Part shown: piece by piece, positions 928 through 17,382 of the stretch | Layout of the letters: each line of letters opens with the position of its first letter | How positions within the stretch are numbered: position 1 is the first letter of the stretch | Origin: a virus | IMG/VR virus record: IMGVR_UViG_3300030060_000158 | Location: 1-24,977 of that record | Strand: one strand, 5' to 3' | Length of the DNA stretch: 24,977 nt | Position numbers and translations under genes: made by a program | The notes under the pieces: generated by a model | Database searches by the model: none | What the model saw: only the letters and a program-made list of their open reading frames with translations | Told to the model about the DNA's origin: nothing

Positions 928-2822
928 TGACAGAGGATAAAGTAGGACCTAAAGAATATTTAGGTATAAAAATTAATTATGATAACGAGAAAAAACTAGA
1001 TAAGTTTAGTCTTGATACATTAAAAGATAGATATTTTACAGGAGAAGAAACCCATGCCCAAGAAGCATTTGCCAGAGCAGCGACCTTCGGAGCAACCTTC
1101 AAAGGTGTCACAGATTTTGAATTGGCTCAAAGACTTTATCAGTACAGTTCCTCGTGTTGGTTTATGTTTAGCACTCCTATACTTAGTAACGGGGGAACAA
1201 GTCGTGGCTTACCTATTAGCTGTTTCCTCAATTATGTTCCTGACAGCAGGAGTGGTTTATCTTCTCACTATGATGAAAATATTTGGTTGGCGAGTTCAGG
1301 CGGAGGTATTGGTGGATTTTGGGGAGATGTTAGAAGTAATGGTGTATCTACTACTCATGGTAGTAAGTCTACTGGTTCTATCCCATTCATGCACGTAGTT
1401 GATTCTCAGATGTTAGCCTTTAATCAAGGTGTAACTAGACGTGGTAGTTATGCTGCATACATGGATATATCACACCCAGAAATAGAAGAGTTTATTGAAA
1501 TGCGAAAATCTTCTGGTGGAGATATAAATAGAAAATGTTTAAATCTACACAATGGAGTTAATCTTACTAATGAATTTTTACAAGCTGTTCAAGACGATGC
1601 AGACTGGAGATTAGTTGATCCTAAATCCAATGAAGCTGTTAAAGTTGTAAGTGCTAGAGACCTATGGTGGCAAATAATAAATGCACGTGCTGAAACAGGA
1701 GAACCTTACATTATTAATATTGATAATTGTAATGATGCATTACCACAAAAACAAAAAGATTTAGGTTTAGAAATAAGACAAAGTAATTTATGTTCTGAAA
1801 TAACATTACCAACAAACGAAGAACGCACAGCAGTTTGTTGTTTATCTTCTGTAAACTTAGAATACTTTGATGAATGGTCTAAAGATGAAAACTTTATCAG
1901 CGATTTAATTACAATGTTAGATAATGTAATACAACACTTTATTGATAATGCTATCGACACAACACAACTAGGAGAATATAATGCAAATTTTAAAAGGTTT
2001 CAAAAATATATACGAAAGGGTAAAGAAGGTTTTACTAGAGCTGCCTACTCTGCTTACAGAGAAAGGTCGTTGGGTCTTGGAGCAATGGGATTTCATGCCT
2101 ACTTACAATCACATAGTATCCCGTTTGAAAGTATTTTCGCTACAGGATTTAATAACAAAGCTTTCAAATACATTAAAACACGAGCCACGTCAGCTTCTAA
2201 GACACTCGCTGAACAACGTGGCGAAGCTCCTGATATTAGTGGGTCTGGTTTTAGGAATGCTCACCTTTTGGCTGTTGCTCCTAATGCTTCTTCTGGCATC
2301 ATATGTAGTGGGACTTCTCCTTCGATTGAGCCATACAGGGCTAACGTATATACGCACAAGACTCTTTCCGGAAGCTACCAAGTAAAAAATAAGTTCTTAG
2401 AAAAACTTTTTAAATCAAAAGGTTTAAAAGTAAAAGAACTAGAACAGTTATGGAAAGATATTGCAGGTAATGATGGTTCAGTTCAACACTTAGATATATT
2501 AACTGATGAAGAAAAAGAAATATTTAAAACTGCTAATGAGATAAATCAAATATGGGTAGTAGAACACGCATACAAAAGACAGGATTTTATATGTCAATCT
2601 CAATCAGTTAATTTATTTTTTACTTTACCAAAGGCAACAGAGTCGCAAGAAACTCACGATGAATATATGCAATATGTAAACGATGTTCATTGGTATGGTG
2701 CTAATAAATTAAAATCATTATATTATTTTAGGTCTAATGCTGCTCGTAATGCTGAAGATGTAAATGTTAAAGTACCTAGAATTAAACTAGATGATGTTGA
2801 ATGTATAGCTTGTGAGGGATAA
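927..2822 (+). CDS. nrdA: ribonucleoside-diphosphate reductase class I, alpha (large) subunit
   Basis: The large subunit of aerobic ribonucleotide reductase converts ribonucleotides to deoxyribonucleotides, using a radical supplied by NrdB. In the 631 residues the first redox cysteine is Cys99 (ISCFLN). A Gly-rich loop (SSGGGIGG, about 123-130) follows. The active-site trio is Asn287, Cys289 and Glu291 (NLCSEI), and the partner redox cysteine is Cys304 or Cys305. A Ser/Gly-rich segment ending SPSIEP precedes the radical-transfer tyrosine pair Tyr599-Tyr600 (SLYYF). The flexible tail ends in Cys626/Cys629 (CIAC), the pair that accepts electrons from thioredoxin or glutaredoxin. It is shorter than E. 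coli NrdA (about 760 aa), and no N-terminal ATP-cone is visible, so dATP feedback at that site is probably lost. The start overlaps the DUF3310 stop by one base. The end carries the Shine-Dalgarno site of the oxygenase gene. Confidence 0.96.
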   Translation: MTEDKVGPKEYLGIKINYDNEKKLDKFSLDTLKDRYFTGEETHAQEAFARAATFGATFKGVTDFELAQRLYQYSSSCWFMFSTPILSNGGTSRGLPISCFLNYVPDSRSGLSSHYDENIWLASSGGGIGGFWGDVRSNGVSTTHGSKSTGSIPFMHVVDSQMLAFNQGVTRRGSYAAYMDISHPEIEEFIEMRKSSGGDINRKCLNLHNGVNLTNEFLQAVQDDADWRLVDPKSNEAVKVVSARDLWWQIINARAETGEPYIINIDNCNDALPQKQKDLGLEIRQSNLCSEITLPTNEERTAVCCLSSVNLEYFDEWSKDENFISDLITMLDNVIQHFIDNAIDTTQLGEYNANFKRFQKYIRKGKEGFTRAAYSAYRERSLGLGAMGFHAYLQSHSIPFESIFATGFNNKAFKYIKTRATSASKTLAEQRGEAPDISGSGFRNAHLLAVAPNASSGIICSGTSPSIEPYRANVYTHKTLSGSYQVKNKFLEKLFKSKGLKVKELEQLWKDIAGNDGSVQHLDILTDEEKEIFKTANEINQIWVVEHAYKRQDFICQSQSVNLFFTLPKATESQETHDEYMQYVNDVHWYGANKLKSLYYFRSNAARNAEDVNVKVPRIKLDDVECIACEG

Positions 2823-2823
2823 T

Positions 2824-3402
2824 ATGTATATAGAAAAACCAGTAAATAAAAAACCTGCTCCATTTGTTAATGTAAATCATTTTTTAACAGAAACAGAGTG
2901 CATACAAGTTAAAAACATATCTAATGATATTGAAAAATGGACAGGTAAAATACATAGTAATACTGATAAATCAACAAAAGTTAACTCTGTGCGAGAAGTA
3001 GATGTATATCCTATACCGGCTTCTTCTGAATATAATTATTTATATGAAATAATTTTTGATGCTGTAAAAGAATGCAACAATAGTCATTTTAATTTTGATA
3101 TAGCAGGGATTTTTGATAATTTACAATTACTACATTATAAAAAAGGACATCACTATGACTGGCATACAGATATAGGTAATGGTATTTATGCTAACAGAAA
3201 AATATCTGTATCTGTTTTGTTGTCTAATGATTGTGAGGGTGGAGAACTTGTACTAAAACAAGGAGCAGATAGACCAATACATATGGAAGTTGGAGATATG
3301 ACAATGTTTCCAAGTTATGTATTACATAAAATAACCCCAGTTACTAAAGGAGAAAGATGGTCTTTAGTTACATGGATACAAGATATTAAACCATTTAGAT
3401 AG
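2824..3402 (+). CDS. 2-oxoglutarate/Fe(II)-dependent oxygenase (prolyl-4-hydroxylase/PKHD-like)
   Basis: The 192-residue protein has the Fe(II)-binding facial triad of the 2OG oxygenases: His114-x-Asp116 (YDWHTD) and distal His168 (VLHKITPV). Arg178 (GERWSLVTW), ten residues on, is positioned to bind the 2OG carboxylate. The intervening strand CEGGELVL is typical of the P4H/PKHD group. Family members hydroxylate proteins or small molecules; the substrate here is unknown. I chose the ATG at 2824 because GAGGG (2814-2818) lies five bases upstream inside the end of nrdA. A GTG at 2812 in the same frame would overlap nrdA and lacks comparable support. The gene sits between nrdA and nrdB, as auxiliary genes often do in marine phages. 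Confidence 0.88.
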   Translation: MYIEKPVNKKPAPFVNVNHFLTETECIQVKNISNDIEKWTGKIHSNTDKSTKVNSVREVDVYPIPASSEYNYLYEIIFDAVKECNNSHFNFDIAGIFDNLQLLHYKKGHHYDWHTDIGNGIYANRKISVSVLLSNDCEGGELVLKQGADRPIHMEVGDMTMFPSYVLHKITPVTKGERWSLVTWIQDIKPFR

Positions 3403-5244: not shown

Positions 5245-7326
5245 CTATAAGTTTGGTTGTAATTCTTTTAATCTTGTCAAAGTTTGTATGCTTTGACCAG
5301 CTAATCCATAAAATGCTTCAATGTTATCATTGATAGTATTAGTTGTATAGATTGCTGTTGGCTCATACCATTGAGTTTGATCTGGTATGTAAACTGTTGC
5401 ATAGCTGTTAAAGTTAGGAACAAAGCCCATGTATGCTATAATTTTATCTTCCGAACCATACTCTCCGGTTTCTTGTTGTTTACTTTCAACTTCTTCTTGT
5501 GCTTGTTGTAGATTATTAGCTATAATGTTTTCAACCAGTTGTTGAGAATCTGCATCATTAGCTTGATTACTTATAGATACATCTAGGTTGTCTTGAATAT
5601 TTTGTGAGGTTGTGGTATTATTAGCTACCGATGTTGTTGTAGTACTACTTATATTAGAACTCATAGTGCTTGTCGTAGTTGTAGTTGTTGTAGTAGTGGT
5701 CATGTCTAGTATTTGATTAGTTTGTGCAGTCGATGAATTAAACTGATCCGAAATACTTGGAGAGTTAGAAATACTATTTGTAGAACTAGATGATGTTGAA
5801 CCTGACATACTTGAATTAGCTGCTCCGGTTGTTGATGTATTACCATGAACAGTTGTGTATACACTATCTCTAGCAGTTTTGTATGTGCTACTAACTACTC
5901 GTAGTGCCATCTCTTTTGTTATAGAACTTTTACCTTCTTGTTCTTCAATAACTTCTTCTTCTGTATCTTCACTACTTTCTTCTTCTATTTCTTCTTCTAT
6001 GGATTCCGATTCGTTTTCTAAAATTTCTTCTTCTAATTCCTCTTCTCTGTTCCCATGCTGTCTTTCTTCTTCTATCCATTCATCTAACTCTTCCATAGTT
6101 TCAAACTCTACAATCCTTGCAGGTTCTTCAAAATCTTCTAATAAAAATGTTTCTTGCAATACAAACTCATTTAAGATTGCATCTTCTATTCTAGGTAGCT
6201 GGTCTACTTGTCTACCTTCTAAATCTTCAAAAGCTAGTAATACTACAAACTCCTCTTGATGTTGCTCGTGTCGCATAGATTCTGGCTCAAACAAATCAAA
6301 CTCCTCTGGAAAAGTTTCATACTCTTCATCCAGAAATATAGGCTCTAAGAATATTTCTTCTTCAAAAATGTCATACAAAGTGTCATACTCTTCAAAATCG
6401 TCATACCCAAAATGTTCTTGCTCGTCTCTAAATATTCCACTAGCAAACTGCTCTTGTTCATCTACAAAACCATAGTCAACCATTTGCTCGTCAAAGAATG
6501 CAACAGATTCTTCTTGTCTGTATCCACGACAAAAGGGTGCATACTGTGGGTCTAGGTCGCATTGTAAATCATCATAAGCTTCCCAATATCCCGGACAGTT
6601 TGTATCATTTAGAGGATTACTACAGTCTAAATTATTACCAGAACCTGCTCCATACAATGAACCACCATTCTCTAGTAGTGTGTTAAAACTAGAATTATTC
6701 CAATCAACATTGACACAACTTGAGCTGTTAGTTGTACCTGTATTACATTCATCATAAAATAAATACTGATAGTAAGTATTAGAATCTTTTTGTTCTCCTA
6801 TCAAGACATCATGTTTATTAATATTAAGTGCACCATATCTAAAATCAAAACTAGAGTTGGTCCAAAGTATTACTTCAAAACTGTTATCAGAGCCACTACG
6901 ATTATATTCACGCATATCATACCAGCCAAAGACTGTTTTATCATTAAAGTTTTTTGCTAACATCTTAGAGTTGCTATCTCTAATTAAGTCAGTCCAGAAT
7001 GGAAAAAGTGTGTAGTTATATTGTGGAAGAGGGTCAGGTGTATAATCACCACAGTAATTATTATAGTTAATATTACCTGTACCTAACCCAAAATGAAGAC
7101 ATCCATTCGTAGCCATACGAGCAGATGTAAATTGTTGATCGTAAAAATTAAATGTAAAGTCTAAATTAAATGCAGACGATAATTGGTCGTCTCCAGCATT
7201 TAAACTTGTAGTTCCGGTTTGATTTGTTAAGTCTATTAAAGACTGATTGCTTTCATAAATGTATTGACTAGCAAGATTAAAACTTAAACAAAGAACTGCT
7301 ATTTGCCATAAAATTCGTCTATGCAT
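5245..7326 (-). CDS. exported NIDO-like protein with acidic stalk (693 aa)
   Basis: Residues 1-20 (MHRRILWQIAVLCLSFNLAS) look like a signal peptide. Residues about 45-180 have the pattern of a nidogen-like (NIDO) beta-sandwich: FTFNFYDQ, a conserved TNGCLHFG, LFPFWTDLI, VFGWYDM, FEVILWTN and DFRYGA. Residues about 192-270 are Cys-rich and include one CPGYWEAYDDLQC...CRGY unit, a repeat I recall from marine phage and bacterial proteins. Residues 273-465 are extremely Glu/Asp-rich with aromatic residues and DEQE-type repeats. Residues about 490-575 are Ser/Thr-rich with a run of ten Thr at 543-552. The C-terminal ~95 residues are a mixed tail. NIDO domains occur in extracellular adhesion proteins, so a surface or virion-associated role is inferred. 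The gene overlaps the preceding exported-protein gene by 28 bases. Confidence 0.72.
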   Translation of the reverse strand: MHRRILWQIAVLCLSFNLASQYIYESNQSLIDLTNQTGTTSLNAGDDQLSSAFNLDFTFNFYDQQFTSARMATNGCLHFGLGTGNINYNNYCGDYTPDPLPQYNYTLFPFWTDLIRDSNSKMLAKNFNDKTVFGWYDMREYNRSGSDNSFEVILWTNSSFDFRYGALNINKHDVLIGEQKDSNTYYQYLFYDECNTGTTNSSSCVNVDWNNSSFNTLLENGGSLYGAGSGNNLDCSNPLNDTNCPGYWEAYDDLQCDLDPQYAPFCRGYRQEESVAFFDEQMVDYGFVDEQEQFASGIFRDEQEHFGYDDFEEYDTLYDIFEEEIFLEPIFLDEEYETFPEEFDLFEPESMRHEQHQEEFVVLLAFEDLEGRQVDQLPRIEDAILNEFVLQETFLLEDFEEPARIVEFETMEELDEWIEEERQHGNREEELEEEILENESESIEEEIEEESSEDTEEEVIEEQEGKSSITKEMALRVVSSTYKTARDSVYTTVHGNTSTTGAANSSMSGSTSSSSTNSISNSPSISDQFNSSTAQTNQILDMTTTTTTTTTTSTMSSNISSTTTTSVANNTTTSQNIQDNLDVSISNQANDADSQQLVENIIANNLQQAQEEVESKQQETGEYGSEDKIIAYMGFVPNFNSYATVYIPDQTQWYEPTAIYTTNTINDNIEAFYGLAGQSIQTLTRLKELQPNL

Positions 7327-8348
7327 TGTCCTTTTGTTTTTGTTTTACTAATTACAACTTTACTAAATAATCCTACAACATCACGTTTTATTCTATCTCT
7401 CTTAGGATTTGATTCTTGTGTGCATTGTGCTATAAATTCTTTTTTAGCATCTGCTTCATCTGGTCGTGCACTAGGATTTTCTTGCCATGCAATAGTTGCT
7501 TCTTTACCAATCTTACCTTTATAAGGACAAGGTGTTCCTGCCATTGACATAGCTTTGAACACTCTTTCATCTTGACAAAGTAAACTAACTGAAGCCACCT
7601 TCATACCCATATCATAGAGATATTTACTAAGTTTTAATCGTTCACAGTTTTCATCGACTATTGTTTTACCACCTGATAAACCTATCACTTGACCAGAGAA
7701 TGCAGCCGAAGCTCCTACTCGGCATATATCCTGCGAATAACTCATAATACTTGGTGCAATAGCAGAAGCAGGAGGTGCTTTACTTTTTACGTTTTGATTA
7801 ATAGTTTGCACACTACTGGATTCATTAATGTTTCTATTTGTGTTATTACTAACTGTATTATTATTATTTTGATTTACATTATTAGTATTTACATTAGATT
7901 CAGACTCTGATTTATTAATGTTTGTATTTGTTGACGTATTAACATTAGTATTGTTAGAGGTTGTTGTATTGTTTACATTTTGATTGACAGTAGAGTTTAC
8001 TGTAGAAGTTGATGTAGATGTAGACGTATTGACGTTATTATTGTTGTTAGTATTGGTAGAAGTACTGCTAGATGTATTTGTATTATTGTTATTATTGGTT
8101 GCAGTACTAAAGTTTGTATTTGTATTAGTGCTGACATTTGTATTAGTATTTACATTTGTGTTATTGTTTGTGTTAGTATTTGTATTGTTATTAGTATTAA
8201 CATTAGTATTATTATTAGTATTTGTGTTAGTAGTCGTTGTAGTATTAACTGTTGTTAATGCATTGTCCTCATTATATTGAGTACCATCTTGACCATACGC
8301 AACATTAACTAATCCTAATGACAACATTAATAACATTAGTTTTTTCAC
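7299..8348 (-). CDS. exported Asn/Thr-repeat protein with six-cysteine C-terminal domain (349 aa)
   Basis: A GTG start at 8348 is preceded by GGAGGAG with seven bases of spacing and overlaps the upstream stop (GTGA). Residues 1-19 are a clear signal peptide (MKKLMLLMLSLGLVNVAYG). Residues about 31-185 are almost only Asn, Thr, Val and Ser (for example NTNTNNNTNVNTNNNTN). The C-terminal domain (about 200-349) contains Cys209, 235, 258, 274, 309 and 342, with SYSQDICRVG, VDENCERLKLSKYLYDMGMK and LLCQD blocks. I associate these with exported proteins of marine podoviruses, from memory; no function is known to me. Six cysteines in an exported domain suggest disulfides. The protein is likely periplasmic, on the cell surface or on the virion. 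Confidence 0.78.
   Translation of the reverse strand: MKKLMLLMLSLGLVNVAYGQDGTQYNEDNALTTVNTTTTTNTNTNNNTNVNTNNNTNTNTNNNTNVNTNTNVSTNTNTNFSTATNNNNNTNTSSSTSTNTNNNNNVNTSTSTSTSTVNSTVNQNVNNTTTSNNTNVNTSTNTNINKSESESNVNTNNVNQNNNNTVSNNTNRNINESSSVQTINQNVKSKAPPASAIAPSIMSYSQDICRVGASAAFSGQVIGLSGGKTIVDENCERLKLSKYLYDMGMKVASVSLLCQDERVFKAMSMAGTPCPYKGKIGKEATIAWQENPSARPDEADAKKEFIAQCTQESNPKRDRIKRDVVGLFSKVVISKTKTKGQCIDEFYGK
7850..8260 (-). repeat. low-complexity Asn/Thr codon repeat tract
   Basis: This interval encodes the Asn/Thr-rich part of the exported protein. On the - strand it is a degenerate mixture of AAT/AAC and ACA/ACT codons with occasional GTT/GTA. One block encoding NNNTNV recurs 16 residues apart (residues 45-50 and 61-66). 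The tract is imperfect but long enough to be prone to slippage or unequal recombination, so its length may vary between related phages. Confidence 0.7.
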
Positions 8349-9175: not shown

Positions 9176-9412
9176 TTATTTATCTATTGTTATTGTTGTT
9201 TCAAGTAAATCGTTTACAGAGTCTATTAAATATTCTGGCATATCTGCTGCCAGTATATCATCAGCACTATAAGCTTTCATAAAATGTTCTAATAAATCTT
9301 CATACAAAGGTCTAAACTCTTCTAGTTGAATCCACTTTTCATTACTTTTAGTACGAGCTTTACAATCTATTCTATAAGCTTTTTCTAATTGTTTTTCTGT
9401 GTATAACAACAT
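9176..9412 (-). CDS. hypothetical protein between lysozyme and holin-like gene (78 aa)
   Basis: I do not recognise this protein. It is a small acidic soluble protein, probably mostly helical (EKQLEKAYRIDCKARTKS, then EFRPLYEDLLEHFMKAY), with no signal peptide or membrane span. It overlaps the lysozyme stop by one base (TAATG at 9410-9414), and its own stop is followed after one base by the holin-like start (TAATATG). Its position inside the lysis cassette suggests a lysis or late-expression accessory, but the sequence gives no direct hint. Confidence 0.68.
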   Translation of the reverse strand: MLLYTEKQLEKAYRIDCKARTKSNEKWIQLEEFRPLYEDLLEHFMKAYSADDILAADMPEYLIDSVNDLLETTITIDK

Positions 9413-9864
9413 TATCTTTGCTCTAGTACTATATTTTGTAACTCTACACTACGTCTACCCACTTGATAAAACCATCTGCTGTCTTGCATTTGTCTAGCCA
9501 TTTCATCCCAGTTATGTTCCCAACAAGCTGTTAACATCTTGCGAAACTTGGAAAGTCTTGTACCACCTAGATTAAAACACATATTAACTAAGACGTGCTG
9601 TATAGGTTCTGGTAAATTATAAAAAGCTTCTTGACTTCCAAACACATGAATCGCTTCAGCATAATGTTTATCAAAGTCTATTGTATAATATGTATCCACT
9701 ATTTCTTGAGATACAGGTGTTCCGATATCCCAGTTATATTCAATTTCGTGTGGCTGACATAAATGCCCAACTCCTAAAGTTTTATATCCTAAACTATCCA
9801 TATAAATTTCTAGGACTTCGCCTTCGTGTCTTTTTATATCAGCTTTACATTGTTCTATATTCAT
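9412..9864 (-). CDS. T4-type lysozyme / endolysin (GH24 muramidase)
   Basis: This endolysin cleaves the glycan backbone of peptidoglycan. The catalytic triad of T4 lysozyme (Glu11, Asp20, Thr26) is reproduced with exact spacing as Glu14, Asp23 and Thr29 in KRHEGEVLEIYMDSLGYKT, followed by the GVGHL motif. The C-terminus has the expected helical segment around FRKMLTACWEHNWDEMARQM and RWFYQVGRR. At 150 residues it has the usual length. There is no signal peptide or membrane anchor, so release should need the nearby holin. I prefer the ATG at 9864, one base after the upstream stop (TAATATG). A TTG five codons upstream in the same frame would overlap the previous gene. Confidence 0.93.
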   Translation of the reverse strand: MNIEQCKADIKRHEGEVLEIYMDSLGYKTLGVGHLCQPHEIEYNWDIGTPVSQEIVDTYYTIDFDKHYAEAIHVFGSQEAFYNLPEPIQHVLVNMCFNLGGTRLSKFRKMLTACWEHNWDEMARQMQDSRWFYQVGRRSVELQNIVLEQR

Positions 9865-9865
9865 A

Positions 9866-12800
9866 TTATTTTGTCTCAATTAAATATATTTTTTCTGGCT
9901 CACCAGTTTTAGGATTAATTCTTGTTTCTGATTTTGTCAAAAACTTATCATTAATTGAAGTTTTATCTTTTGTAAAAATATAGTTTGGAGTTGTGTTTCC
10001 TTTTGGAAAAGTAGGTGTTGTTTTAATAACACTATAATTATTTTTATTTAAAAAATCATCTACACCTTTACCATAACCTGATATGTAATTATTGGAACTT
10101 AACATATCACTTTTAAATTCTTTTAAGTGACGTGCTGCTGCTACATCATCTTGTTTTGCTAGTCCAGTTTTTTTAGAATTGTTAAGTTTAATTATATCTT
10201 TATCAATTAATCTTAATAAATTTGACGATGGATTATCTGCATCAAAAACTTTGTTTTTATTAAAACGTAAAATATTTTTTATAGATGAAATATCACTAGC
10301 ATCAATTTCATAAATTGCACCTTTGTTACCAGTAAATTTTATTGTTCCTTGTTTGGTTGGAGCTGCAAACACTCCAAATTTTTGAAATTTTTTTGGTGGT
10401 CTAAGTTCAGTTAAATCTCTTCGTGTACTACCATGATAAACTGTTTTAGGCATACGAGATTTTGCAACAGATTGAAACACAGTTTCTGCACCTTCTGTAA
10501 CTAATTTTTTACCACTAAGTATACTTGCAAATTCAAAAACAGGCATAACATTTTTTAGTCCCGGTTCAGGTTCACCTTTAACACCTAATTGTTTTGCTAA
10601 GTTTGTACCTTCATAAATGATTTCTGGTCCATCTTTTGTCATACGATAATCAATACCTTCTTTATCATACTTTTCTTTAAGTCTTTTTTGCCTAGCTTCT
10701 TCTGTAAAATAATTTTGGATTCTATCTAGTAAATTTTGTTTAGGAGTTCCTCCTGTTCTTAGCTGTATTCTTTCATCTTCATCTTCCAGATAAGGTTCTC
10801 CAGTAAAAGGATTAATTCTTTCAGCAGCAATATCTTTAACATCAGATACTGGAAAATCTTTACTTACAGGACCTCCTTCAAATTTTGGGTCTCTGTCTAA
10901 TTCTCTTTGTAAATCTGTTATACCAGCTTTTTTTTGTTGTTTTTCAACTAAATCGTTTAACTGTCTAATTTGAATCTCATCATAAGTTTTATCTCTTGCC
11001 ATATCTCCTAAGTCTTTTACAAACTGGTCAAATTGAAAAATTAAATCTGGATTAGTTTTTGCAAGAACACTTCTATAAGGCATTAAATTTTTTATAATAG
11101 CAAGTTCTGGTCTATTTGTTTTTATAGCATCAATAAATACACCTCCGATTGTAGGACCTAATACACTTAATAAAGCAGTAAACTCATTATCTCCATATTT
11201 TTGATTTTCTTTAGCTGTATATAAAAGTGTTAAAGGTCCACCCACTCCCATATAATCTAAATCTTTTAATATAGCATCTAAATCATAATCTTCTTCTAAG
11301 GACTCTCCTCCTGTTTTAATAGCTCTTTGTAATCGAGTCATGCCTAACATTAAAGTTAAAACTGCCATATTTTTTGGAGCATTTACTAATGGCGAAAGTT
11401 TAGAATCTCTAATTACATTTTTGAAAACTGTATTAAAAAATGCTGTTGGATACGAAAATAATTGAAAGACAACCCTACCAAGATAATGATTCATTATTAA
11501 AGGTTTTTGACCAGATTCTCTACCGGGATTCATTACAACATCATCTACGTATCTAGCAGAACCAGCTCTTATAGTTTCTGTAAATAAATCATCTGCTTTT
11601 GCTCCATCTTTATACCATTTTATTCCTTTTTCAATATCAATTCCTAAATCAACTAAAGGTAATTTTAATCTTTGACCTTTTGCAGAATCTAATTGTTTTG
11701 CTGACATTTTACTTAATGTTTCTAAATTTTCAGTAATCATAATTTTACTAGCATTGTATGCAAAAATTTGCATAAATTTAGTATATTGGTCTAGTAAAAT
11801 ACTTCTATAAAATTTATAACTAATGTTACTTGTTATGGCTCCAAGCCCTTCTGCATAAGAATTTTGAACTGCTTCAGCTAAAGAGCCTTTTAAAACCATA
11901 TTTAGTTGATTTAATTCTTGTCTACTTAAACTTCTTCCTTGCTCACCTGTGGTAATATTCTTATATAAAACAGTAGTTTCATCATTAATAGTTTTATAAA
12001 ATGCTTTTAAAGCTACACTAGGATTACTTTTTAAAAATGGAATTAATGTTTCTGGAATACTTGAAAGTGTTGCAAGTCCTAACTTGTTTGCACTTTGTAG
12101 TAATATAATAGAGTTAGCTACTTTATTTAGCCCTCCTTCAATACTACCTTGTGGAACTCCTCCAATACCTACAATGTAATCTCTAAGAAGTTGCACTCTT
12201 TCTTTTTCGTTAGACATTGTTTTCATAGGATTTTTTAACGTGCCTTTGTAAATAACATTAGAGGGTTCAAACGAACCTACTATTTTTTCTGGTCGTAAAA
12301 TAAAATCTCCAGCAAACATTCTGTTCGTTATAAGTTTATCTATAACTTCTGTTAAATTATTTCCCTCTGCATTATTAATAATATCTCTATCACTTGGTCT
12401 TAATACTTCTGCATTTGTTTCATCAATCATTTTTTTTAATTGTTTTAAATGTGCATTTAACATTTTTGGATTAGCTACATCATCTAATTTTTCTACTTCT
12501 TTAGGTTTTAAATTTAATAAAGTATTTAAATCTATAGCTTGATTGTTTGTATTTTGTCTAATTAAAAAGTTTAGTCTTGTATACTCACCTACATTACTTG
12601 TATCAATTAAACTTTCAGTAAATCCTCTTGCTTTTAATCTATCTAAAATAACATCTCTGCCTGTAACTTCATCAGTTGCTTTTGTTGTTCCACCAAAAAA
12701 CTGATTTAGCCATTTTTGTTCAAACTCTTCTTGAGTAAAGCCAAGAGTTTTTTTTCTAACAATTTTACGACCCATACCATTTAAATAGAAAGACATAGCA

Positions 12801-14839
12801 GCTTGAATATCAGATACTAATAAATCTTGAATATTAGTCGTATCTAAATTTTTATACTTTCTCTGTCCTAGTGAACCTATAGTTGGGTCCATATCATCAT
12901 AAATTTTATTTACTAAATCGTCAACTGCTATAAGAGCATCAGAAAATGCCATGTCTTCATCATTAGCTAATTGAAAAGCAAATCTTTCTTTGTTTTTTTT
13001 ATTTTTAAAAAATTTAGCTGGTTTATAATATCTTGGAAAAAAATTAGGAACACTATGAAAAACAAACCCAGCATTAATTGCTTCTTTTTCTACATCATCA
13101 AATATTTTTCTTAAATCTTTACCAGCTTCAATAACTTGAATAGGAACACCACCTTGAACATCACCTCTATTTAAAAAAGCATATAAATCATTATTTAGTG
13201 CTGTTCCATTTTTAACTTTAAAGTTACCTCTATCTTTATATCTAGGATGTTGTCTTGCAAAGTTTTGAATATTTTCAACAATAGTAACCATACGACCCAT
13301 ATACGGACCAACTGTATCTCGAATTTGTTCTTGATAACTTCGTTGTTGTTTTGATGTACTATTAAGAATTGCAATAGGATTATCTAAAATACTATCCGTA
13401 GAATCATGTCTAATAAGTCTAAGAAAAGTATCAAAGTTAGGGTCAATCTCAGCAAGTCTTTTTGAATACGTTGTAGGTCTACCAAATAATAAAAAAGTGC
13501 TTATAGCTTCTTCATAACTTTTTTTACTTAACAAACCTCCTATTACTGGTTTTTCACTTGGATTATCTTTTAGCCTAGTTTCTCCATCTACTATTATTAC
13601 TTCGGGGTCTTCAACATCTATTGTTTTACTACCAGTTCTAAAAATTTCTGTAGGGTAAACTTCTGCTTCTTTATCAGCAACTCGTTCAACATGAGTTGAT
13701 TCAGGATTACCATCTCGGTTACGTAAGTTTAAACTTTCACTAGATGCTTCTTCTAAAGTTACAATTTTAGGATTTGGATTAGGTTTTGTTTGAGGTTCAT
13801 TTGGATTAATTATTTCAACATCATCTCTTTCTGGTGTTCTGTTTAAAATTATATTTTTAAATTGTTCTGAATCATCTGCTTCTTTTTTTCTTAATGCTCT
13901 AGCATCAAAATATCTATAACCAGCAGGTATAGCAACTCCGGGTATTAAACTTATAGTTGCACCAAAGGCACCAGATTTAGTCATTTCAGTTGGAGAAAAT
14001 TGTTCGTATCCCGGTATATCAAATTCTTCAAATAACTGTTGTCTTAATGCATAATCTGTTGAACCCAAAATAAATCCTTCTGTTCCTAGAAGTGTAGTAG
14101 TTTGTCTATAATTACGAGGGTCAATAGCAAATTTTGGTATCTTATCATAAGATTTTTTAACTGTTTGTTTAATTGCAGCTTTTAATCCTTGTCTCGCTGT
14201 TTCTCCTGCTGCAACTCTTGCTGGAGCACTTCCACCTGAAGTAAAAGGAAATGCTATAACTGCTGCCCAGTTTGCGACATCTGTTAATGCTCCTGCTAGT
14301 ATATCACCAGTTAATCCTAAATTTTCTGCAAAACCTTGTGCATTATATTTGTCTCTACCATCTGGTAAAACTTTATAAAATTCATTATATAAAAAGCTTA
14401 TATCGTCTCTAAACTGTATGTCTTCTGGACTTTGTTTTTTTTGTTGATTAAGAATATTTACTAATCTAATAGCTGCATGAGTTGTATTAAATCCTGCATC
14501 TCTTGCATAGTCTACAAATCTATCAGATGCTTTACTACCATCATCATATGTAGTTTTATCTACATAACTCATAGCTCTTATAGCTCGTTCTACAACCTCT
14601 GGATTCTTTTTAAAATCTGATATAGAAAGTTGTGGTGTTTCTGTAACTAAACCAAGCTCTGCATCCGTAACAGGTTTATCAAATGTTTGTGATATTAAAG
14701 CTTGATTTAACCTTTCTTCTGTTGTAGGAGGTTGAAAAGTTTCTTGTGGTTCTGAACTTAATCCAAAACTTGAAGTTATAGGTTCATCTACAATTTGAGG
14801 TTGTGAAGTTTTTTCTTCTTCTATAGGTACTAAAGGCAT
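9866..14839 (-). CDS. giant internal/ejection virion protein with C-terminal ART-like extension (1657 aa)
   Basis: The size, position before the lysozyme and hydrophobic stretches in an otherwise soluble protein match the large internal or DNA-transfer proteins of podoviruses. Hydrophobic stretches lie at about 174-205 (TGDILAGALTDVANWAAVIA), about 285-310 and about 1120-1145 (GRVVFQLFSYPTAFFNTVF). These proteins are ejected to form a channel across the cell envelope. The N-terminus is Pro/Glu-rich. Residues about 1340-1348 read RINPFTGEP, a motif I associate with the end of this protein type. About 310 residues follow, including VYHGS (Tyr1468, His1469), FGVFAAPTKQG (about 1488-1498) and IYEIDASD (Tyr1510), which resemble an ADP-ribosyltransferase fold. 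The protein ends with a second RINPKTGEP at about 1640. The ART assignment is tentative. There is no Shine-Dalgarno before the ATG. Confidence 0.72.
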   Translation of the reverse strand: MPLVPIEEEKTSQPQIVDEPITSSFGLSSEPQETFQPPTTEERLNQALISQTFDKPVTDAELGLVTETPQLSISDFKKNPEVVERAIRAMSYVDKTTYDDGSKASDRFVDYARDAGFNTTHAAIRLVNILNQQKKQSPEDIQFRDDISFLYNEFYKVLPDGRDKYNAQGFAENLGLTGDILAGALTDVANWAAVIAFPFTSGGSAPARVAAGETARQGLKAAIKQTVKKSYDKIPKFAIDPRNYRQTTTLLGTEGFILGSTDYALRQQLFEEFDIPGYEQFSPTEMTKSGAFGATISLIPGVAIPAGYRYFDARALRKKEADDSEQFKNIILNRTPERDDVEIINPNEPQTKPNPNPKIVTLEEASSESLNLRNRDGNPESTHVERVADKEAEVYPTEIFRTGSKTIDVEDPEVIIVDGETRLKDNPSEKPVIGGLLSKKSYEEAISTFLLFGRPTTYSKRLAEIDPNFDTFLRLIRHDSTDSILDNPIAILNSTSKQQRSYQEQIRDTVGPYMGRMVTIVENIQNFARQHPRYKDRGNFKVKNGTALNNDLYAFLNRGDVQGGVPIQVIEAGKDLRKIFDDVEKEAINAGFVFHSVPNFFPRYYKPAKFFKNKKNKERFAFQLANDEDMAFSDALIAVDDLVNKIYDDMDPTIGSLGQRKYKNLDTTNIQDLLVSDIQAAMSFYLNGMGRKIVRKKTLGFTQEEFEQKWLNQFFGGTTKATDEVTGRDVILDRLKARGFTESLIDTSNVGEYTRLNFLIRQNTNNQAIDLNTLLNLKPKEVEKLDDVANPKMLNAHLKQLKKMIDETNAEVLRPSDRDIINNAEGNNLTEVIDKLITNRMFAGDFILRPEKIVGSFEPSNVIYKGTLKNPMKTMSNEKERVQLLRDYIVGIGGVPQGSIEGGLNKVANSIILLQSANKLGLATLSSIPETLIPFLKSNPSVALKAFYKTINDETTVLYKNITTGEQGRSLSRQELNQLNMVLKGSLAEAVQNSYAEGLGAITSNISYKFYRSILLDQYTKFMQIFAYNASKIMITENLETLSKMSAKQLDSAKGQRLKLPLVDLGIDIEKGIKWYKDGAKADDLFTETIRAGSARYVDDVVMNPGRESGQKPLIMNHYLGRVVFQLFSYPTAFFNTVFKNVIRDSKLSPLVNAPKNMAVLTLMLGMTRLQRAIKTGGESLEEDYDLDAILKDLDYMGVGGPLTLLYTAKENQKYGDNEFTALLSVLGPTIGGVFIDAIKTNRPELAIIKNLMPYRSVLAKTNPDLIFQFDQFVKDLGDMARDKTYDEIQIRQLNDLVEKQQKKAGITDLQRELDRDPKFEGGPVSKDFPVSDVKDIAAERINPFTGEPYLEDEDERIQLRTGGTPKQNLLDRIQNYFTEEARQKRLKEKYDKEGIDYRMTKDGPEIIYEGTNLAKQLGVKGEPEPGLKNVMPVFEFASILSGKKLVTEGAETVFQSVAKSRMPKTVYHGSTRRDLTELRPPKKFQKFGVFAAPTKQGTIKFTGNKGAIYEIDASDISSIKNILRFNKNKVFDADNPSSNLLRLIDKDIIKLNNSKKTGLAKQDDVAAARHLKEFKSDMLSSNNYISGYGKGVDDFLNKNNYSVIKTTPTFPKGNTTPNYIFTKDKTSINDKFLTKSETRINPKTGEPEKIYLIETK
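9897..9923. repeat. degenerate direct repeat, copy A (distal end of the ART-like extension)
   Basis: This 27-base segment matches 10794-10820 at 22 of 27 positions, including the uninterrupted AGGATTAATTCTT. On the - strand it encodes INPKTGEP near the C-terminus of the giant virion protein. With its partner it brackets about 870 bases encoding the ART-like extension. Confidence 0.55.
10794..10820. repeat. degenerate direct repeat, copy B (proximal end of the ART-like extension)
   Basis: This copy encodes INPFTGEP on the - strand and is the partner of 9897-9923 (5 mismatches in 27). It may be a duplication scar of a C-terminal tail or simply a recurring NPxTGEP motif, which is common in large phage proteins. 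Confidence 0.55.
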
Positions 14840-14855
14840 ATTAATTTAAAATAGT

Positions 14856-16757
14856 TTATTGCAGCACCCAATGGATGCCATCTTCAGGGTCGCTTACAAA
14901 TTTCCAAACAGAGTTTCCGTTGTTTAATGAAAATTGTTGACCATCTTTAAATAACTCTGGTTGTGTTGTTCCTAGACTTTCTGGAGTATACCATAAAATA
15001 GGATTAGTATTTAATTTTTGATTATAAGATTTAATTTGATTTTCATCTAAAACTCTTTTACCTGTCAATTTAAATATATCAGCTTCAAACTCGTCTCCAG
15101 TATCTTTTGGAGTATACGTAGCAAATTCTTGTGGTTGATAAATTTCGTCATAGAGATTAAACTTAGGTTTTTTTTCAAAAACAGAACCAAATAATTCCCA
15201 ATCACTACCTTGTTCTATACCAAGTAACTGCATATTTACAGCAGCTCTAATAGCTTTTTGTTCATCTAAACCACCGGATGCTATTAATCTTTTTACTTGT
15301 GAAATAACTGTAATTTTAAATGTAAGTTTATCATTTCCATTTAGTTGATTATAGAATTGTTTTTGTCTTGTATTATTACTAGAGTTAATTTCAGCATCTA
15401 CTCTTCCACTAAATGTAGTAATATCTTCTTTTTTAACAGCAAAATTTTTGTAACTTGCTTTAAAACTTTCAGGGACACCATCTTCACCAAGTCCATATAT
15501 AACTTGTGCTTTTAAATGATTTGGTATAGCGTTAAAATCACCACCATATAATTCAATTATGTGTGATGCATCATTATAATTAATTCGTTCTCCTGTTGTT
15601 TTTGTTATATAGGTTGTTGGAAATGCTTGACTAAATCTAATAGTCAAATCATTGTCTGTAAATGATTCTGCAAATTGATTAGAATTATAAAATATTGAAA
15701 CAATCTCATCTGCATTGTCTAATTTTAGATTAGCATTTAAAGGTTGAGCATTATAATAAGCAATAAAGTCTGCTAGTTCATCAGGATTAGCTTTTTTGTT
15801 TTGTTCTGCTTGAATAATTCTTGCATCATCATCAAGTAAGGGCATAAAATAAAATGCATAATCATACTTACCATTTTCATCTAAACCTTTGGAATTACTC
15901 CATTGTCGAGATGTAGCAACAATAGCATTAAATTTCCTTTCTTGTTTTTCTAATTGTTTATTAGCTTTTTTACCACCTGTATTTTCTTCTTTTTCTTCTA
16001 TAAATTTACTAAGTATAGCTGAACTTCCTGCATAGGTTGGTAAAGAAACTCTATATTTACTTGTTTGTTCTACAATTTTTTGTAATTCTAATTGTTTAGT
16101 ATTAAATGATTTTAATAAATCAAATTTACCTCTTTCATTTAATTTTAATATTGAACCAAGCTCGTCTAATGGATTATTAATACCAAAATTTTTCTGTGAT
16201 AATGCAAGTTTTCTTACACTATCTAAAATAGGTTTTTTAAATAAACCTTTACTTTTTACATCATCTGAAAAAATTTCTAAAACTTCTGCTTGGTCTTCTG
16301 TTTCTGGTTCATATTTTGTAACTAATTTAGAATAACCTTCAAGTCTTTTGTTTATTATATTTGCTTGTTCTTCTGCTTCTTTTCTTAAAGATACAAATAA
16401 ATCATTATCTTGGTCTATACTTTCTTTAATGGCTTCTAATCCAGTAATACCAGCAGCACCTTTTACATCTTCTACATTAGATAAAAATATTCCTTCAGTT
16501 AAATTTCCTTTACCTTTTTTTATTAATTCATCAGCAATTTTTTGTTCTTTCTCATAATCTTCAAAGAGTTGAACAAATCTTTCTTCTTCATCTTTAAGAT
16601 TAACATTAATGTAATCTAAATTATTTTTTATTCTATTATTTAACCCTTTACTAATTCCTTCTACAATAGCTATTCCTACATCTGCTGCTCTAGGTTTTAA
16701 AGCTTTTCTAATTCTTCTTTGAATATTTTGTCCAACTTGTTGTTGTGGTGATATCAT
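14856..16757 (-). CDS. hypothetical internal virion protein (633 aa)
   Basis: I do not recognise a specific family. The N-terminal 250 residues are charged and helical, with probable coiled coil (NLKDEEERFVQLFEDYEKEQ, then KEAEEQANIINKRLEG). The remainder is mixed alpha/beta without membrane spans, cysteine motifs or a signal peptide. The C-terminus, around GNSVWKFVSDPEDGIHWVLQ, looks like a small beta domain. It sits directly before the 1657-residue ejection-type protein and after other structural genes, so an internal virion or ejectosome component, analogous in position to T7 gp15, is likely by context only. AGGAGA lies shortly before the ATG, which follows the upstream stop as TAATATG. 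Confidence 0.65.
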   Translation of the reverse strand: MISPQQQVGQNIQRRIRKALKPRAADVGIAIVEGISKGLNNRIKNNLDYINVNLKDEEERFVQLFEDYEKEQKIADELIKKGKGNLTEGIFLSNVEDVKGAAGITGLEAIKESIDQDNDLFVSLRKEAEEQANIINKRLEGYSKLVTKYEPETEDQAEVLEIFSDDVKSKGLFKKPILDSVRKLALSQKNFGINNPLDELGSILKLNERGKFDLLKSFNTKQLELQKIVEQTSKYRVSLPTYAGSSAILSKFIEEKEENTGGKKANKQLEKQERKFNAIVATSRQWSNSKGLDENGKYDYAFYFMPLLDDDARIIQAEQNKKANPDELADFIAYYNAQPLNANLKLDNADEIVSIFYNSNQFAESFTDNDLTIRFSQAFPTTYITKTTGERINYNDASHIIELYGGDFNAIPNHLKAQVIYGLGEDGVPESFKASYKNFAVKKEDITTFSGRVDAEINSSNNTRQKQFYNQLNGNDKLTFKITVISQVKRLIASGGLDEQKAIRAAVNMQLLGIEQGSDWELFGSVFEKKPKFNLYDEIYQPQEFATYTPKDTGDEFEADIFKLTGKRVLDENQIKSYNQKLNTNPILWYTPESLGTTQPELFKDGQQFSLNNGNSVWKFVSDPEDGIHWVLQ

Positions 16758-16758
16758 A

Positions 16759-17382
16759 TTATCTCCTATCTAGTAAATTTTGTTCATTCGTTTCGTCTGG
16801 TCTATCAAGTAACCCTAACGTCTGTTCAGTAGGTGCAAAGTCTTGAACTTGTTGCTGTAAAGCTGGTGCTTCAGCTATAGTTTGTGCTGATAAACCACCA
16901 AGTTTTCCTGTTAACATTTGTTTTAAATTATCTAAACTTTCTCGTTTTTCATCTGGGTCAAGTTCATCTTCTTGAGCTTCACCTTCATAACCTAATACAT
17001 CACCTATTCCTGCTTTTTCAGCTAAAGCCAGTATCATATACATAACTGGTTCCATTAATAAAAGCATTAAATCTGGATTAAATTGTCCTAATTGAAAACC
17101 TCTGTATAAAATAGCAGAAGCAATATCGACAACACTTGTACCACTTTTTAAAGCTCTAAGTAAAGAAATATAATTTTCTTCTTCAGTCATGTCAGCAAAG
17201 ATAGCTGTGGCTGCTTCTGGTACAGAAGTATAAACAGGAGGTCTCTCCCATGAATAAGGCTGTTCAGTTGAATTTGTTAAAGACTGACCCGGCACTCCTT
17301 TATTAAATGCACCTTCTAATAATCTAACTTTTTCAGGAGAAAAATCTTGTTGATTTATTTCTAAATTATTTATAAATTCCAT
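16759..17382 (-). CDS. hypothetical structural-region protein (207 aa)
   Basis: The family is not recognised. The N-terminal part (about 1-60) has many Pro, Gly and Ser residues (GVPGQSLTNS, PYSWERPPVYTS). A helical hydrophobic middle follows (VVDIASAILYRGFQLGQF and LMLLLMEPVMYMILALAEKA), which could be buried helices or a membrane-active segment. The C-terminus is acidic and Gln-rich. It lies between the 452- and 633-residue virion-type genes with only a few bases of spacing. AGGTG precedes the start, and the stop abuts the next gene (TAATATG). It is probably a minor virion component or chaperone; no direct evidence separates these. Confidence 0.62.
   Translation of the reverse strand: MEFINNLEINQQDFSPEKVRLLEGAFNKGVPGQSLTNSTEQPYSWERPPVYTSVPEAATAIFADMTEEENYISLLRALKSGTSVVDIASAILYRGFQLGQFNPDLMLLLMEPVMYMILALAEKAGIGDVLGYEGEAQEDELDPDEKRESLDNLKQMLTGKLGGLSAQTIAEAPALQQQVQDFAPTEQTLGLLDRPDETNEQNLLDRR

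Follow-up and report, generated by a model that had tools for sequence, protein, structure and literature searches.

The window, by which we mean the whole 24,977-nucleotide stretch of viral DNA analysed here, encodes on its minus strand a protein of 1657 residues (P0001) whose C-terminal end had been read by eye as an ADP-ribosyltransferase (ART)-like domain fused to an ejection protein. This raises the questions of whether the domain is indeed ART-like, and what such a domain would be doing at the end of a protein of this kind.

Genomic context of P0001

The genes that define the context of P0001 are the following:

9866..14839, minus strand: P0001, the gp16-slot (ejection-type) protein, 1657 aa; gene order like that of HTVC103P, HTVC104P and HTVC115P
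10820..14839, minus strand: body of P0001, residues 1-1340, delimited by homologues ending at the connector, L010 among them; matches phrog_7348 (E 2e-38) and phrog_6958, a virion structural protein (E 2e-16)
11138-12136, minus strand: conserved core of the body, residues about 902-1234
9412..9864, minus strand: lysozyme gene immediately downstream (Phage_lysozyme, PF00959, E 3e-7), the conserved edge of the slot
14856..16757, minus strand: putative gp15-like protein, 633 aa, assigned by position, size and synteny
16759..17382, minus strand: putative gp14-like protein, 207 aa, assigned in the same way

The order of the genes for proteins of 705, 452, 207, 633 and 1657 aa resembles that in HTVC103P, HTVC104P and HTVC115P. 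The 705-aa neighbour of P0001 matches proteins of these three Pelagibacter phages and of Roseobacter phages CRP-345 and CRP-9, all of which we take to be HMO-2011-type phages. HTVC115P and the CRP phages have a gene order similar to that of the window, with ribonucleotide reductase encoded on the other strand. P0001 occupies the gp16 slot of an HMO-2011-type marine podovirus. This phage group has been described previously, and a DraG-like ADP-ribosyl hydrolase is encoded in some of its genomes (PMC9038755); the enzyme might have a link to the ART-like tail discussed below, or none.

The 207-633-1657 aa order resembles gp14-gp15-gp16 of T7, which measure 196, 747 and 1318 aa (PMC8954989), and P0001 has both the position and the size (>1000 aa) of a gp16-type protein. 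T7 gp16 differs in being without an ART tail, and no sequence match between it and P0001 was detectable. Family searches with the 633-aa protein and a pattern search of viral contigs with the P0001 body likewise gave no match. The placement of the domain on an ejection-type protein, as had been claimed, is supported.

Other genes of these phages deserve mention. The window encodes a 2OG-Fe(II) oxygenase (2812-3402; Pfam E 9e-16), the neighbours of which look like ribonucleotide reductase genes. Two late-region proteins (5245-8348) look by eye as if they began with signal peptides; long NTNTN-type repeats mark one, a NIDO-like stretch together with an acidic region the other. In HTVC115P, gp46 (L104:15798-16247), located inside the virion gene cluster, is annotated as a toxin-activating lysine-acyltransferase.

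A probable, divergent ART-like domain at the C-terminus

All three motifs on which the original prediction was based lie where it had put them, within residues 1463-1648 of the minus-strand protein: VYHGS (1467-1471), FGVFAAPTKQG (1488-1498) and IYEID (1509-1513), all inside 9897-10453. The domain and its sites are as follows:

9932..10465, minus strand: ART-like domain, residues about 1459-1636; PF18760 E 0.008; relatives in L001, L006, L007, L088, L097, L075, L027 and L092
10433..10435, minus strand: H1469 of VYHGS, candidate for the first catalytic residue; all relatives covering the site retain HG
10367..10369, minus strand: F1491 of GVFAAP, at the Y position of the second motif; F or Y in relatives
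10301..10315, minus strand: IYEID, residues 1509-1513, a structural strand; E not conserved
9965..9985, minus strand: NYIFTKD, residues 1619-1625, a C-terminal strand followed by D; candidate third motif, from the alignment

When the isolated domain was compared with 24,736 Pfam families using hmmscan, the sole family retrieved was ART-PolyVal (PF18760; E 0.008, 17.4 bits); the whole of P0001 matched it with E 0.042 (15.1 bits). The match spans just the first third of the profile, and the curated cut-off of 31.2 bits was reached neither by the window domain nor by its relatives (up to 20.6 bits). PF18760 was also the sole family for L006 and L007 (E 7.9e-4 and 3.8e-3). In a scan of nine members of the domain family it was the commonest match and had the best E-value (3e-4; three members), with a PARP model appearing once (E 0.086); since the nine are homologous, these matches are not independent tests. 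No PF18760 match was found for L088 and L097. Profile-profile comparison of the window-type domain with canonical ART-PolyVal was not significant, and searches with the domain against PDB sequences and against phage and bacterial genomes retrieved no match. A canonical ART profile matched an ADP-ribosylating toxin chain at no better than E 0.57.

Relatives of the domain in IMG/VR are few (L001, 95% identical, L006, L007, L088, L092 and L097), and two more, L075 and L027, came from the set of lysozyme neighbours. In every case a large protein, or the fragment of such a protein at a contig edge, ends in the domain, and at all loci whose next gene was read (L001, L006, L007, L027, L075, L088 and L097) it is the lysozyme gene. 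Downstream of the lysozyme in L088 (9499-13764), proteins resembling CsgG, curlin repeats, FecR and CHASE2/nucleotidyl cyclases were recognised by eye.

Structure prediction, which had been proposed as a check on the fold, gave low-confidence models. The AlphaFold model of the window domain has a pLDDT of 55 (<50 over the first 88 residues) and yielded no sensible Foldseek match; a listing of 50 VIA rows for this model contained AcrIF11 as its only ART, a weak match at rank 47 (Z 2.9). The model of the L097 domain is about half confident (pLDDT 64, pTM 0.56), and confidence is low in both models over the half that holds the motifs, with pLDDT mostly <50. Weak matches to ART folds were obtained with this second model: among Foldseek hits, all with E-values >0.2, the first in the PDB was 6kyf (E 0.76) and the third was 9r35_D, from a Xre-RES toxin complex, RES being a member of the ART superfamily. 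VIA-align placed residues 1421-1594 of 9k3a_B at rank 4 against residues 1-164 of the L097 model (Z 3.5, rmsd 3.8, 102 residues aligned), a Z value in the range where unrelated matches are frequent; it is outranked by YchF proteins, for which the match covers about 60 residues, and differences of up to 1 Z unit count as ties. The protein in 6kyf, AcrIF11, is an ART anti-CRISPR (PMC12421852).

Taken together with the Pfam results, these weak structure matches make an ART-like fold likely. The sub-threshold Pfam scores, poor models and non-significant profile-profile comparison would also suit some other alpha/beta fold in which the motif likeness arose by chance. This we consider improbable, as PF18760 tops the member scan, a PARP model also turns up there and two of the top three Foldseek matches are ART-superfamily folds. 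What stands of the proposed ART-like domain is a likely assignment to about residues 1459-1636, with PF18760 as the best family and weak ART structure matches on its side, and with sub-cut-off scores and low-confidence models.

The putative active site

The candidate active-site positions of the window domain hold H, F and D, and the R-S-E of the Alt/VIP2 clade is not found there; judged by these residues, the domain appears to resemble the H-Y-D class of ART-PolyVal, whose H, Y and D lie in strands 1, 2 and 5. The third of the motifs originally proposed fared less well. The E of IYEID is E, P, K or D in the aligned relatives while Y, D and S are retained, so that IYEID is a structural strand and could be dismissed as the catalytic E motif. 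A better candidate is D1625, at which D or E is kept in most relatives (E in L075, L027 and L092; D one residue earlier in L088), with an uncertain register against PF18760.

With F at the second motif and S in place of the GYDGV-type Asp of strong PF18760 members, the activity of the window domain is uncertain. The domain might have an ART-like fold and yet be catalytically dead or weak, in which case it would act through binding to NAD, to nucleic acid or to a host protein, or serve to plug the virion core. The two substitutions would favour this, the Asp being S or K in most short-type relatives as well. The second-motif residue is Y in L007, L088 and L097. However, F also occurs in L121, a strong PF18760 member; moreover, HG is retained in every relative covering the site, and an acidic residue is retained near the last strand. 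We therefore regard a dead or weak enzyme as rather unlikely.

Comparison with known phage ARTs

The nearest known kind is that of the polyvalent proteins. Polyvalent ART-PolyVal proteins are likewise large phage proteins of virion type, carry an ART domain predicted to be injected and combine effector domains in a mosaic fashion. Unlike in these, the P0001 domain scores below the family cut-off and sits at one fixed C-terminal slot of the gp16-slot protein. Mosaicism is seen across the family (ART-like, ART-PolyVal, zincin-like and multidomain tails), and in P0001 itself one effector-like domain was found.

An injected effector of this sort had been considered notable for a marine podovirus, but precedents exist. 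The vRNAP of Roseovarius Plymouth podovirus 1 has an ART domain (PMC5512222, Iyer et al. 2017), and in ORF27 of cyanophage A4 (A-4L), a pre-ejectosome protein of solved structure (9k3a_B), residues 1421-1594 form an ART-like C-terminal YHGT...GTYFS domain, reading LYHGT and SGTYFS (PF18760 E 0.17). A4 is a freshwater cyanopodovirus, unlike the window phage, and 9k3a_B has no sequence match to the window protein. In Pf-WMP3 and Cyanophage PP, proteins matching the ejectosome tail of A-4L bear the annotation ParB-like partition nuclease or tail protein.

T4 Alt, with which the original prediction had drawn a parallel, is also a virion-borne ADP-ribosyltransferase delivered at infection. It is, however, a separate internal head protein, not fused to an ejection protein, and Iyer et al. 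placed it in the R-S-E Alt/VIP2 clade (PMC5512222), whereas the window domain resembles the H-Y-D ART-PolyVals; kinship of the two was rejected by active-site class. AcrIF11, a phage ART and the best Foldseek match of the L097 model, is only weakly similar and, unlike the fused domain of P0001, is a stand-alone anti-CRISPR.

Variable tails behind a conserved connector

The alignment of body homologues with P0001 reaches to about residue 1357-1380, which is where many of them end. The features around this point are:

10748..10849, minus strand: connector, residues 1331-1364 (VSDVKDIAAERINPFTGEPYLEDEDERIQLRTGG), the end of the body in tail-less relatives
10466..10747, minus strand: linker between connector and domain, residues 1365-1458, within a blastp match (1316-1628) to L002/L003
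9893..9922, minus strand: second, degenerate connector copy RINPKTGEPE, residues 1640-1649

The connector consensus, RINPFTGEPY, was matched 45 times across the set and forms the C-terminus in most relatives. RINPKTGEPE is identical to it at 8 of 10 positions, a level reached in none of 20,000 shuffles of the tail, as if the window cassette were bounded by two connector copies. In L044 a connector-like EQMNRLGF is repeated within the tail.

Searches with the neighbouring lysozyme found 452 relatives, and 80 of these loci were retrieved for comparison of the slot. The gp16-slot proteins of the 80 loci differ widely in length. In the connector motif scan, 39 distinct proteins end ≤59 residues past the connector, and 20 run on for 90-1303 residues (five of the 20 are the window itself or were fetched for their tail, and the long-tailed L022, L040, L041 and L014 were missed by the connector motif scan). 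Of the 63 ORFs, eight are short fragments or have their start at a contig edge, with intact C-termini. The extension, whose presence in relatives had been proposed as a check, is variably present, the compared relatives carrying at the same spot an ART-like tail, another tail or none.

Canonical ART-PolyVal-like tails were found in L013 and L034 (E about 2e-4) and in L030, the latter related to a protein from the head cluster of Sulfitobacter phage phiGT1. In phiGT1 the ART-PolyVal-like protein (L093:2629-3792) is encoded between portal-side genes and the scaffold protein. L025 and L035 carry a zincin-like HEIVH tail, read from the sequence, and L044 a tail of 1303 residues. Among cultured phages, the tail of HTVC104P contains Phage_lysozyme (5e-9) and methyltransferase (7.5e-4) domains, HTVC103P has the same combination with a methyltransferase-like domain, the HTVC033P protein matches LPD38 (E 1e-23), and the proteins of CRP-9, CRP-345 and CRP-2 are short (1121-1156 aa). 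Several tails are without a known domain. In the tails of L040 (5616-7001) and L022 (5090-6988) there are HNAT and LHSIF...KNPLEI stretches; these tails may represent additional ART-like domains, for which Pfam gave no support.

Comparison of closely related loci reveals how the tails differ. Over 3960 bp, L061 and L074 have 99.2% identity; a 329-bp insert in front of the lysozyme then sets them apart, after which identity resumes at 97.8%. L034 and L046 are 91.4% identical over 3877 bp and continue into tails without relation to each other (about 980 and 257 bp), beyond which the lysozyme resumes at 84.7%. Conversely, L025 and L035 share tail and lysozyme (88.7%; tails 88.6%) with almost no match upstream, their bodies giving none. 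The window tail is 27-34% identical to tails found on other bodies; among these, L006, L007, L088 and L097 have tails 30-34% identical and bodies that do not match its own, in comparisons made by blastp only, so that bodies called unrelated may still share distant homology. Tails are therefore cleanly gained and swapped at the connector, and one tail is common to unrelated bodies. With other domains or none at the identical spot in related phages, the end of P0001 looks like an exchangeable payload slot.

Proposed role of the gp16-slot tail

We propose, with a probability of about 0.62 for the whole, that the C-terminus of the gp16-slot protein is an exchangeable payload slot, occupied in the window phage by an ART-PolyVal-like payload delivered at infection. 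The body (residues 1-1340) would assemble in the internal core of the virion, and the C-terminal part would pass into the host cytoplasm at infection by analogy with T7 gp16, the C-terminal region of which is presumed to enter the cytoplasm (PMC8954989). After the conserved connector some phages have no tail and others one of several effector-like domains that are unrelated to each other. The divergent ART-PolyVal-like domain of the window phage would enter with the first DNA and, ahead of phage gene expression, move ADP-ribose from host NAD+ onto a host or defence factor. Presence in the virion, delivery, catalysis and target of the ART-like tail are what we infer from these comparisons.

Alternatively, the tails could be interchangeable domains that serve the structure or assembly of the virion core, which is how the several tails without a known domain might be read. 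We find this unlikely: the recognisable tails look enzymatic (ART-PolyVal, HEIVH zincin-like, methyltransferase, lysozyme), and the presumed cytoplasmic destination of the T7 gp16 C-terminal region also speaks for delivery.

Extending the payload-slot proposal, we lean slightly towards the gp16-slot protein of abundant ocean podoviruses acting generally as a delivery arm, with one exchangeable payload site behind the connector, into which anti-defence effectors are inserted or swapped, much as the C-terminal toxin domains of polymorphic toxins are exchanged. With empty, filled and swapped sites all known, the idea can be tested directly. If it is true, one of the commonest phage groups of the ocean would deliver varying proteins alongside its DNA through a fixed arm, and the tails would make up a ready-made catalogue of candidates for early anti-defence or take-over factors.
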